A stretch of DNA of 37,504 nt from a virus: the IMG/VR virus record IMGVR_UViG_3300045999_005920, positions 1-37,504 of that record; one strand, 5' to 3'. The translations under genes and the position numbers were made by a program. Of the stretch, positions 2-23,763 are shown one piece after another. The notes under the pieces were generated by a model. It worked only from the letters and a program-made list of their open reading frames with translations, was not told the origin of the DNA and did not search any database. The stretch's first letter is position 1. Every line of letters begins with the position of its first letter.

Positions 2-952
2 ACTAGGGGTTGGATAGAAGAGGCTGGAGAGTTTCACAGAGATGCAAAGAATAACTTACAAGCAAGTATAGGAAGGTGGAAAAATGGTGTATATAATTTA
101 GTTGGTAAGTTGTTACAGACTTGCAACCCAGCTAGTAACTATTTAAAGTCAGATTATTACTACCCATTTAAGAGTGGTAAATTAGAGAGTTGGAAACGGT
201 TTATACAGGCTTTCCCACAAGATAACAAAATGCTACCTGCTGGGTACTTGGATAACCTAAAACGTATATTAACTAAAAACCAAAAAGAACGTTTATTATT
301 TGGGAATTGGGAATATGATGATGACCCGAGTGTATTATGTGACTATGATGCTATCTGCGATGTGTTTACCAATGAACATGTAAAGACTACAGGCAATAGA
401 TATATTAGTGCAGATATAGCCATGCAAGGGCGTGATAAATTCATAGTGGGTGTATGGGATGGGTTTGTGTGTGATGTGGCAGTAAGCGAGGATAAAAGCA
501 CCGCAAAAGGTATCACAGCTACTATAACTAGGCTAATGGATAGATATAGCATAGGTCATAGTAGATTAATAGCTGATGCTGATGGTATAGGTGCATTTGT
601 TGGCAGTTATATTGATGGGTGCAAGGAATTTCATGGGGGCGGTAGTGCCACAAACAAAGATGAATACGCAAATATTAAAAGTGAATGTGCATATAAGTTA
701 GCTGAAAAGATTAATAAACGTGAAATATATATTAAGTGTAGTGAGGAGCAAAGGTTATTAATTATAGAAGAATTGGGAGTGCTTAGGGCTGATGATGTAG
801 ATGCAGACGAACGCAAGAGGCGTATTATTAAGAAAGATTACATGAAAGAATTAATAGGGCGTTCGCCCGATTATCTTGATATGCTGATAATGCGTATGTG
901 GTTTGAGAGTAAAGACAGGGAATTTTTTGATATTTCTAGTTGTGATTATTAA
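2..952 (+). CDS. terL: Terminase large subunit, C-terminal part (partial, runs off the left edge)
   Basis: This is the DNA-packaging motor ATPase/nuclease that cuts and pumps genome into the procapsid through the portal. The frame is open from base 2 to a TAA at 950-952, so the N-terminal Walker A region lies outside the window. The first visible residues include W-I-E-E-A-G-E, a Walker B-like acidic stretch, followed by the coupling motif T-C-N-P-A-S near base 120. The second half is an RNase H-like nuclease. Candidate metal-binding aspartates are in S-A-D-I-A (codon 413-415), A-D-A-D-G (575-583) and Y-L-D-M-L (878-880). Position directly before the portal gene fits the usual terminase-portal-scaffold-capsid order. 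Internal TTG or ATG codons are not real starts. The family call is strong, although based on motifs read by eye. Confidence 0.9.
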   Translation, partial: TRGWIEEAGEFHRDAKNNLQASIGRWKNGVYNLVGKLLQTCNPASNYLKSDYYYPFKSGKLESWKRFIQAFPQDNKMLPAGYLDNLKRILTKNQKERLLFGNWEYDDDPSVLCDYDAICDVFTNEHVKTTGNRYISADIAMQGRDKFIVGVWDGFVCDVAVSEDKSTAKGITATITRLMDRYSIGHSRLIADADGIGAFVGSYIDGCKEFHGGGSATNKDEYANIKSECAYKLAEKINKREIYIKCSEEQRLLIIEELGVLRADDVDADERKRRIIKKDYMKELIGRSPDYLDMLIMRMWFESKDREFFDISSCDY

Positions 953-22290: not shown

Positions 22291-22884
22291 ATGACATTCA
22301 CATCAAATAATCACCCCAACGATAAGTTTTTCGCAGCACTGTTATTAGGCTGCATACTTTGCATAGCTGCATTTTTTATTACGGTATCTAGTAGCTGCAA
22401 GAGTACAGAAAAAAAACAAGCTAAGTTATACGGCAAATTTGACAAGTTGAAGCGCAAAGCAGATGCAGACAGTGTACTAAAGGTTGTGCCGAGCAAATGG
22501 AGTTTGGCTAATTTCCCAGTCAAATTAAGCGGAACAAAAACCGTCTATTTGCCGAGTAAGAAAATAATTACCCATGATACGGTAACTAAAATAAGTCAAG
22601 TTAATGACACCGTTTACTTGACAAAAACCATTACTAAGCATGTACATTCAGTTGACACGCTACGCACCACCGATACAATACTTGATAATAGACCATTAAC
22701 GCAATTACAGACCGATTATAGGGCGTTAGATGCTAAGTTGATACAATCTATCACTAAGGCGGAGATTGCCACAGAAACAAAAAATAAACAGCGTAGTAAG
22801 TTATTATGGTCAATAGGATTGAACATACTTTTAATACTGCTGATAATTGCACATTATTTGCGTAGATTTGGGATATTGAATTAG
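22291..22884 (+). CDS. Spanin candidate with hydrophobic segments at both ends
   Basis: This 197-residue protein has an N-terminal hydrophobic segment (about residues 13-32) followed by S-S-S-Cys36-K-S, a weak lipobox. The central periplasm-type region has repeated D-T-V/D-T-L and K-T-I-T-K segments (residues 90-130) and a helical part (130-165). The C-terminal membrane segment is L-L-W-S-I-G-L-N-I-L-L-I-L-L-I-I (about 170-188) with a basic tail. An outer-membrane lipid anchor plus a C-terminal inner-membrane helix is the layout of unimolecular spanins, which fuse inner and outer membranes in the last lysis step. If Cys36 is not lipidated, it is a two-pass membrane protein. Location between holin-like and endolysin genes supports a lysis role. 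Its stop codon overlaps the tRNA-like gene. Confidence 0.55.
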   Translation: MTFTSNNHPNDKFFAALLLGCILCIAAFFITVSSSCKSTEKKQAKLYGKFDKLKRKADADSVLKVVPSKWSLANFPVKLSGTKTVYLPSKKIITHDTVTKISQVNDTVYLTKTITKHVHSVDTLRTTDTILDNRPLTQLQTDYRALDAKLIQSITKAEIATETKNKQRSKLLWSIGLNILLILLIIAHYLRRFGILN

Positions 22885-22947
22885 TCAAGTCGTTTTAATG
22901 GTAAGACGGCACATTTGCTGATACGAGTTCAAATCTTGTCTTGACTA
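22883..22947 (+). tRNA. tRNA-like gene with the anticodon region deleted
   Basis: The 65-base segment folds as a tRNA. A perfect 7-bp acceptor stem is formed by AGTCAAG (22883-22889) and CTTGACT (22940-22946), with T at position 8. The D arm is GTTT/AGAC (22892-22895/22904-22907) with GG in its loop. The T arm is ACGAG/CTTGT (22923-22927/22935-22939) with the canonical loop TTCAAAT. The anticodon arm is cut short: GCACATT (positions 27-33, ending in the conserved T33) is followed directly by TGC (41-43) and TGAT. Seven to eight bases, including the anticodon, are missing. GCA/TGC can still pair around a four-base CATT loop. The D loop also seems to hold one extra T. No CCA is encoded. It overlaps the stop of the spanin candidate and shares its transcript up to 23002. 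It may be a decayed tRNA or a tRNA mimic. Confidence 0.6.
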
Positions 22948-22972
22948 AGGTTTTTTCATAAGGATTAATTTT

Positions 22973-23002
22973 CCCTGACTATTTCTATAGTTGGGGTTTT
23001 TT
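22973..23002 (+). terminator. Rho-independent terminator after the tRNA-like RNA
   Basis: A ten-base-pair stem (CCCTGACTAT with ATAGTTGGGG, two G-U pairs) with TTCT tetraloop is followed by six T. It gives the spanin and tRNA-like transcript a defined 3' end. Confidence 0.86.
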
Positions 23003-23019
23003 ATTCCAAATTAATGTTG

Positions 23020-23027
23020 TAGATTTG
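23020..23027 (+). promoter_or_regulatory. Promoter of the structured RNA gene, box TAGATTTG
   Basis: An exact TAnnTTTG lies 17 bases after the previous T run, with predicted start near 23031-23033. That is one to three bases before the long 5' stem of the RNA. No protein gene begins for 290 bases downstream. No ideal minus-33 TTG. Confidence 0.55.
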
Positions 23028-23031
23028 CAAT

Positions 23032-23242
23032 TCAAAAGGTATTCAAGGGACTACACCGCACATCTGATGTACGAACGTAGGGTAAAATATTGAGTACCTT
23101 TTACCTTATTTCCTGTCGTAAGATAGCACCCCTATAACGTTACCCATATTGGTCTATGGTTGAGGGTTTACAAAATCAGAGTTTTCGACTTCCGCTGATT
23201 GTAACGTATAATATTAGCCTACCTTTATTGGTGGGCTTTTTT
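23032..23242 (+). ncRNA. Structured non-coding RNA gene of about 210 nt
   Basis: No open frame of note is present between 22885 and 23319, yet this part has its own promoter and terminator. Folding by eye shows a 13-bp stem, 23034-23046 with 23090-23102 (one G-U pair), enclosing CTAC/GTAG (23051-23054/23077-23080) and a hairpin CACAT-CTG-ATGTA region (23057-23073). Next comes a three-way junction: P1 23137-23143/23201-23207 (ACGTTAC with GTAACGT), P2 23144-23148/23155-23159 and P3 23174-23179/23195-23200, with P2 and P3 stacked on P1. A 14-nt single-stranded linker contains GAGGG, which could pair with ACCC at 23128-23131 as a pseudoknot. A second TACC repeat allows an alternative hairpin (23081-23087/23099-23105) exclusive with the long stem. 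I match it to no RNA family I know. Confidence 0.5.
23216..23242 (+). terminator. Rho-independent terminator of the structured RNA
   Basis: An eight-base-pair stem (AGCCTACC with GGTGGGCT, one G-U pair) with loop TTTATT runs into six T. Confidence 0.84.
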
Positions 23243-23285
23243 ATTTACCTTTACCGCACAATAAGTGTAAGCATATAATTTGACA

Positions 23286-23319: not shown

Positions 23320-23763
23320 ATGAAAGACGCAATAAGCATACAGCGAATTACTACACTACACCCATTAGTACGTGATACCTTTACTAAGTTCATAGATGCC
23401 GCAGAAAGCGAGTTAAATATAACGCTAAGGGTAACACATGCACTCAGGACAATAGCCGAGCAAAACGCACTATATGCGCAAGGTCGAACTACAGCAGGTA
23501 AGATAGTAACAAATGCTAAAGGCGGGCAATCGTTTCATAATTTCGGGCTTGCAATAGATGTAGTGGAGTTGGTAGGTAAAACAGTTAATTGGAATTTTGA
23601 TTACAGCAAATTAAAGCCCATAGCGGATAGGTTCGGTATTGAGTGGGGCGGTACATGGAAATTTGTAGATAAGCCCCATTTTCAAATTACATTTGGATAT
23701 GATAAGGCTACACAACTTGCGGTGTTACCAAAAGATAGTAAAGGCTACCCAATAATAAAATAA
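23320..23763 (+). CDS. Endolysin, M15 family peptidoglycan peptidase
   Basis: This 147-residue protein has the M15 (VanY/Ply500-like) zinc site: S-F-H73-N-F-G-L-A-I-D80 and, near the end, W-K-F-V-D-K-P-H120-F-Q. H73, D80 and H120 would bind zinc. Arg43 and the Q-N-A-L-Y-A-Q-G-R-T segment (48-57) are also typical. It cuts peptide stems of peptidoglycan (L-Ala-D-Glu or D-Ala type linkage, unresolved). No signal peptide or cell-wall-binding domain is present, so it needs the holin-like proteins to reach the wall. The length is that of a minimal catalytic domain. It is a single-gene unit from promoter 23286-23315, with no clear terminator before the next promoter. Confidence 0.93.
   Translation: MKDAISIQRITTLHPLVRDTFTKFIDAAESELNITLRVTHALRTIAEQNALYAQGRTTAGKIVTNAKGGQSFHNFGLAIDVVELVGKTVNWNFDYSKLKPIADRFGIEWGGTWKFVDKPHFQITFGYDKATQLAVLPKDSKGYPIIK

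Follow-up and report, generated by a model that had tools for sequence, protein, structure and literature searches.

A conserved tRNA-like RNA without an anticodon arm at the end of a spanin-like phage gene

Transcripts of organelles are described by the tRNA punctuation model. A plant mitochondrial t-element is named in a study of bacterial RNase P, an enzyme that tolerates extensive truncation of its tRNA substrates (PMC4919922), and the base that precedes the RNase P cut is known to matter (PMC12710915). In human cells, mascRNA and menRNA are substrates of RNase P and RNase Z and are CCA-tailed; mascRNA, which has a compact non-anticodon loop, is not aminoacylated (PMC11693755). The tRNAs of phages can mutate their anticodon loops, a proposed evasion of anticodon nucleases (PMC10264068). 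In addition, integration frequently leaves pieces of tRNA genes behind (PMC9897764), and irregular allo-tRNA-like genes are known mainly from metagenomes and metatranscriptomes (PMC7609411).

Here we examine a tRNA-like element in a virus record of 37.5 kb (the window, by which we mean the whole stretch of DNA that was analysed), whose exonuclease gene points to a distant relationship with Flavobacterium phages (Lillamyvirus). The element is conserved, real and not a broken tRNA; it is tRNA-like and incapable of decoding. Its most likely role, we infer, is in RNA processing at the 3′ end of a lysis transcript, and from its sequence it appears to be part of a wider, apparently undescribed family of phage RNAs.

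Structure and conservation of the element

The element occupies positions 22883–22947 of the plus strand, where a preliminary description had placed it, and both the sequence and an Rfam tRNA match bear out these coordinates. It is 65 nt long, including the discriminator A73, and is laid out as AGTCAAG TC GTTT TAATGGTA AGAC G GCACATTTGC TGAT ACGAG TTCAAAT CTTGT CTTGACT A. The 5′ strand of the acceptor stem (22883–22889, preceded by U(-1) at 22882) forms all seven pairs with the 3′ strand, which together with A73 fills 22940–22947; CCA is not encoded, the next base being A. U8 and C9 lead from the acceptor into the D arm (GTTT-TAATGGTA-AGAC, 22892–22907), with four of four pairs, and G26 follows its stem. 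The T arm (ACGAG-TTCAAAT-CTTGT, 22923–22939) forms five of five pairs. The acceptor stem and T arm are thus as intact as was first reported. What a canonical tRNA has and this element lacks is an anticodon arm with a 7-nt loop. In its place is a stub, GCA-CATT-TGC (22909–22918), and only 15 nt separate the D and T arms, compared with the usual 22–24; in a single-sequence fold these 15 nt hold a 3-bp stem with a 4-nt CAUU loop. The folding energy of the lone sequence is modest (z=-1.65).

The preliminary description had proposed running ARAGORN and covariance models. ARAGORN calls no tRNA at the element, and an Rfam scan in the fast gathering mode reports nothing there, whereas sensitive cmscan matches the Rfam tRNA model RF00005 at 36.3 bits (E=4.9e-6; gathering cutoff 29), from the first to the last model position while skipping most of the anticodon arm. 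A strict short-cloverleaf filter had no matches in 40 Mb of simulated DNA and, together with the Rfam score, this rules out a chance origin. Features of tmRNA are also absent: the acceptor has U3-A70 rather than G3-U70, the element is only 65 nt, and this region of the window has no Rfam tmRNA match.

Relatives were sought with the upstream gene as query, which gave 16 IMG/VR loci. All loci that cover the site carry the element, with the exception of L020, and it is always a single copy per record at this one locus. The sequences, drawn from 12 or more metagenomic phage contigs, fall into seven variants; these score 30.2–36.7 bits against the Rfam tRNA model, all above the cutoff, and ARAGORN calls none of them. 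The shortened arm is present in every variant, none has a 7-nt anticodon loop, and no full-length tRNA was found at this site among the relatives examined. A fresh deletion or an assembly error is ruled out, because the same form, with its arms kept, occurs in many independent contigs. Two relatives at a greater distance, L118 (81% exonuclease identity, on the contig of L020) and L119 (71%), lack the element, and on the L119 contig the upstream gene leads directly into the endolysin gene.

The 42 positions of the arms have a mean pairwise divergence of 3.2%, compared with 22.8% at the fourfold-degenerate sites in the neighbouring gene, so the early judgement that this is not random decay stands. 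For three non-overlapping pairs of variants, the probability of so few arm changes is 1.5e-3, 8e-8 and 6e-5, values that are approximate since sites were treated as independent. All pairs of the acceptor and D stems form in every variant; neither stem shows covariation, because neither varies. In the T stem, one A-U pair of the window is replaced by G-C in the other variants, a double change that shuffles match in 69 of 500 trials. The GG reported for the D loop is intact in the window, but two of the seven variants (L010 and L012) have a single G. Position 74 is A in the window and C in one variant only (L013). A run of at least six T lies within a few nucleotides of the element in all variants (22951–22956 in the window), upstream of and separate from the tail of the terminator described below.

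The middle of the element behaves quite differently, and variants differ there in both length and sequence (GCACATTTGCTGAT, GCATATTTGCTGAT, GCACATAGCTGAT and GCACTCATTAGGGTGCGAAT). The longest, GCACTCATTAGGGTGCGAAT in L012, forms a 6-bp stem closed by a 4-nt AUUA loop. The GCA/TGC pairing first noted does form a 3-bp stub in the window; it is not conserved, with an A-A mismatch in L010 and L011. The preliminary description had pictured a tRNA whose anticodon was removed by one clean deletion right after T33. Since the middle varies freely in relatives, a deletion at that point cannot be established, and a bottom half that differs in length and sequence among both the relatives and the wider family does not fit a single event. 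The accompanying claim, that the element is tRNA-like without the ability to decode, agrees with the missing 7-nt loop.

Gene setting and related RNAs

Upstream lies a gene for a spanin-like protein of 197 aa (22291–22884, plus strand), with an N-terminal hydrophobic segment bearing a lipobox-like SSSC and a C-terminal hydrophobic segment. The protein has no match in PHROGs or Pfam; its architecture and place before the endolysin gene make its assignment as a spanin a reasonable inference. The endolysin gene itself (23320–23763, plus strand) encodes an M15 peptidase (PHROGs endolysin, 5e-36; Pfam PF13539). The element had been described as sitting at the 3′ end of the spanin transcript, which holds for position, but it also overlaps the gene: the A and G of the UAG stop (22882–22884) are acceptor positions 1 and 2 in all seven variants. 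An intrinsic terminator (CCCTGACTAT-TTCT-ATAGTTGGGG then TTTTTT; 22973–23002, plus strand), identified by a terminator scan, begins 25 nt past the element; three of its 10 bp are changed on both sides among relatives.

Between this terminator and the endolysin gene, positions 23010–23243 probably hold a separate non-coding RNA, with a TAnnTTTG at 23020, a long helix (AAAAGGTATTCAA/TTGAGTACCTTTT), a conserved CCTGTCGTAAGATAG and its own terminator at 23216–23237. L014 has it and L020 has a diverged form, whereas L013 and L015, which share the tRNA-like sequence of L014, lack it, which suggests that the cassette is optional.

A scan of viral sequences with a pattern for the T arm and acceptor 3′ strand (ACRGGTTCRARTCCTGTCYTGACTA) gave at least 144 copies in at least 120 viral stretches, with up to five per stretch. 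The same pattern was absent from 396 Flavobacteriales genomes, and a narrower one for the 3′ half was absent from 84,980 genomes. Among the matches listed, AGTCAGG or AGTCAAG stands upstream as the partner strand in 126 of the 144 copies, and 109 receive no ARAGORN call. Outside the window clade (the element of the window and its seven-variant group), these amount to at least 124 distinct bodies of 54–191 nt, with the hallmarks of U(-1), an AGUCARG/CYUGACUA acceptor, a near-invariant T arm and a hypervariable middle, and with a D-arm side like that of tRNA-Leu (GTGGCGGAATTGGTAGACGC). Since copies were selected by an exact 3′ match, only their 5′ side and middle, together with U(-1) and C74, count as independent observations. 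Neither U(-1), found in 106 of the 124 bodies listed, nor C74, found in 120, was forced by the search; among host tRNA genes, 36 of 37 carry C74. A canonical anticodon arm occurs in two of the 124 bodies listed, compared with 2.9 expected from shuffled middles, and in 37 of 45 host tRNAs used as a comparison set. The AGTCARG acceptor is found in two of 359 tRNAs called by ARAGORN, both of which look like miscalled family members.

Among the matches listed, family copies are often found between genes of the same direction, either shortly after a stop or 13–30 nt before the next start, and simple ORF calling finds an overlapping ORF for 30 of the 101 copies that have sufficient flanking sequence. 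The UAG overlap recurs in unrelated copies, as the U(-1)-A1-G2 sequence would produce it given a fitting reading frame. No INPHARED phage was found with the RNA of the window or with the AGTCARG family, and no description of such phage RNAs was found in the open-licence literature. One 93.7-kb phage contig, L096, also encodes a tmRNA (553–939, minus strand; Rfam 68.8 bits; ARAGORN tag DNTISRQEEGARIINMAFANVEMAVAA) that directly adjoins several AGTCARG-family elements.

To relate the window clade to this family, a covariance model (R2) was built from 24 family elements, with the window clade excluded and the middles removed, and was run against 31 sources with many canonical tRNAs. All seven window-clade RNAs ranked at the top (42.9–50.3 bits; 42.9 for the window itself), the best other match scored 32.5 and the canonical tRNAs tested were all lower. 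In the reverse direction, a window-clade model (R1) recovered family elements in L138, L096 and L131 and an anticodon-less body in L176, and did not report the canonical tRNAs of these four loci. The window has the AGTCAAG/CTTGACT acceptor with A73, and its U(-1) with UAG overlap is common to all seven variants. The window clade differs from the family in its D arm (TCGTTT) and in the C74 that six of the seven variants lack, a base neither needed for the fold nor part of the family definition. As judged from these sequence comparisons, the window clade is a probable, divergent and minimal member of the AGTCARG family; its membership is probable rather than certain because the window lacks C74. 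Whether there is a widespread undescribed family in which a fixed tRNA top half (U(-1), AGUCARG acceptor and T arm) scaffolds a freely varying payload without an anticodon, as message punctuation or as trans-acting tRNA mimics, we regard as evenly balanced; the window would be its minimal, payload-free version.

Anticodon-less bodies of other kinds also occur. At least 42 distinct bodies, window-clade variants included, pass the strict filter in a viral scan for short D-to-T distances, in which counts are lower bounds and no enrichment in phages over bacteria is claimed. Some short bodies sit in tRNA arrays and may be decaying. Two others look purposeful, with GAAA tetraloop hairpins in place of the anticodon arm: CUGG-GAAA-CCAG in L266 (9677–9743; Rfam tRNA 49.0) and CUAG-GAAA-CUAG in L219 (10710–10778; Rfam tRNA 50.2). 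Unannotated bodies like that of L219 are present in the cultured Lactococcus phages (Nevevirus) P162 (L339), P092 (L340/L344) and P078 (L341), each closely preceded by TATAAT and with a T-run past the stem, and there are two copies in P092; P118 appears to hold partial matches only. Another recurring body lies just upstream of an ATG at about six loci (L176 394–460, L207 8928–8995 and related contigs), with an ATCCGGT acceptor, a Gly-like D arm and an AUUC-GUAC-GGAU hairpin. The short-body scan gave one match in 299 Flavobacteriaceae genomes. At ~1500 on the minus strand of L315, a Flavobacteriaceae genome, irregular tRNA-like units (AATACGTAGTTC...) are clustered, and in one of them the anticodon region is shortened. 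Five weak matches from a DNA comparison with 149 Flavobacteriaceae genomes were set aside as short start-codon-like or coding stretches, not the RNA.

Possible roles

Different models can be proposed for the element, and a role in RNA processing is the most likely. In its specific form, which we hold tentatively and at somewhat less than even strength, the element would be a phage tRNA mimic reduced to the top half, with the anticodon arm given up, that serves as a mascRNA-like 3′-end processing element of the lysis transcript. The retained acceptor and T arm would make up the mimic, with the D arm providing the elbow. Cleavage by bacterial RNase P would fall just behind U(-1), inside the upstream UAG stop, and the 3′ end at A73 would be produced by RNase Z or exonucleases, giving a stable tRNA-like RNA of ~65 nt that is possibly CCA-tailed; the terminator would end the primary transcript. 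The bottom half would be unconstrained because, as we propose, RNase P and RNase Z do not read it. Cleavage, product stability and a message-processing purpose are all putative steps.

Several observations are consistent with this. The arms are conserved against fourfold divergence of about 23%, with the one T-stem double change, and every variant exceeds the Rfam tRNA cutoff. The features of an RNase P substrate, namely U(-1), A73 and the 12-bp acceptor/T stack, are the most constant here and across the family; family bodies, like host tRNA genes, nearly all carry C74; and family copies often sit close to the ends or starts of genes, with the UAG overlap in unrelated copies. The acceptor/T stack with a D-T elbow is also the arrangement of mascRNA, although the single D-loop G of two variants may weaken that elbow. 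The main objection is that a cut within UAG leaves a non-stop message, which is odd for a pure 3′-end signal. Such a cut could limit reuse of the lysis message, or the released RNA could be the real product. In addition, the rarity of C74 in the window clade makes 3′ maturation less sure, the end of the transcript is already set by the terminator, and, among the matches listed, simple ORF calling finds an ORF overlapping about 30% of the family copies counted.

The main rival is a trans-acting decoy or small RNA, a mimic that would accumulate and occupy tRNA-binding enzymes (RNase P, modification or CCA enzymes, or defence nucleases) while lacking the loop that anticodon nucleases cut. The preliminary description had left the choice between a decoy and a 3′-end signal open; the evidence leans to a processing element, and we consider a decoy possible but rather unlikely. 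Conserved arms without a loop would suit it, as would the anticodon-loop mutations of phage tRNAs with their proposed nuclease evasion (PMC10264068), and the TATAAT-type sequences and T-runs that flank the Lactococcus-phage bodies point to a trans role there, which counts against processing. In the window, a TAnnTTTG motif, which we take to be of the Bacteroidetes -7 type, lies just upstream of the element at 22863, inside the spanin-like gene. However, a promoter within this gene is given little weight because matches are frequent (38 on the plus strand); the copy at 22863 also falls in conserved codons and no TTG was found at the tested spacing. No partner enzyme or defence system was identified for a decoy, and the family's hypervariable middle does not suggest a single binding partner.

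The fold might also act without cleavage, as a structural 3′-end element or translational punctuation that protects the message and supplies its UAG, in keeping with the stop overlap, which all variants share and which unrelated copies also show, and with the position before the terminator. We think this improbable: a simple hairpin would suffice, and it leaves the conserved detail of the T and D loops and the fixed acceptor sequence unexplained. The near-invariant ends and variable middles, and the multiple copies per phage (up to five per stretch, among the matches listed), could alternatively mark a recombination boundary or the end of a mobile cassette where phage modules are exchanged. 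This is quite improbable for the window clade, in which the element is fixed at one locus with one copy per record and no Pfam PF00589 integrase was found in the window or six relatives; the sole variation in its paired arms is compensating, which suggests selection on RNA structure.

Finally, decay of a tRNA gene, or an origin from an attachment site in a host tRNA, as might be expected from the fragments that integration often leaves (PMC9897764) and from the many short bodies in the tRNA arrays of other phages, is highly improbable, given arms far more conserved than fourfold sites, a full-length form never seen in relatives, a 3′ half found in 0 of 84,980 genomes with the family 3′ end in 0 of 396 Flavobacteriales genomes, and the missing PF00589 integrase. 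The last two results rule out a host attachment site within the genomes searched and for integrases of the PF00589 type.

Comparison with known tRNA-like systems

Annotation tools look for an anticodon or a full-length tRNA, so RNAs of this kind are overlooked. Processing would mean that phages use the tRNA-maturation enzymes of the host to cut their own messages, and bacterial viruses would then offer a counterpart of mascRNA and of tRNA punctuation in organelles. A role in trans would instead make these RNAs tRNA decoys that lack the target of anticodon nucleases. In both cases, the purpose of phage-encoded tRNA-like genes becomes testable on short synthetic RNAs.

The closest known systems are mascRNA and menRNA, found at the 3′ ends of MALAT1 and MEN-beta, which likewise are tRNA-like in the top half, carry a compact non-anticodon loop and lie at the end of a transcript. 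They belong to human nuclear non-coding transcripts, whereas the element of the window lies in a phage mRNA, its structure is overlapped by a stop codon and its processing is putative. Plant mitochondrial t-elements and organellar tRNA punctuation are likewise tRNA-like structures inside transcripts that serve as processing signals; they are organellar rather than phage-borne, and share no sequence with the element. The tRNA-like domain of tmRNA also has a tRNA acceptor and T arm without an anticodon, but the element lacks both G3-U70 and an mRNA-like domain and is a contiguous 65 nt. Canonical phage tRNAs have the body fold and the Rfam tRNA match in common with it, the nearest canonical sequence among those compared being a phage tRNA-Gln(TTG), and differ in the anticodon arm and loop that the element lacks; ARAGORN does not call the element. 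The allo-tRNA-like sequences (PMC7609411) have 8/4 or 9/3 acceptor domains, anticodons and a different acceptor sequence. As a single element, the RNA of the window thus falls among known tRNA-like structures; the family, if confirmed, would be the larger finding.
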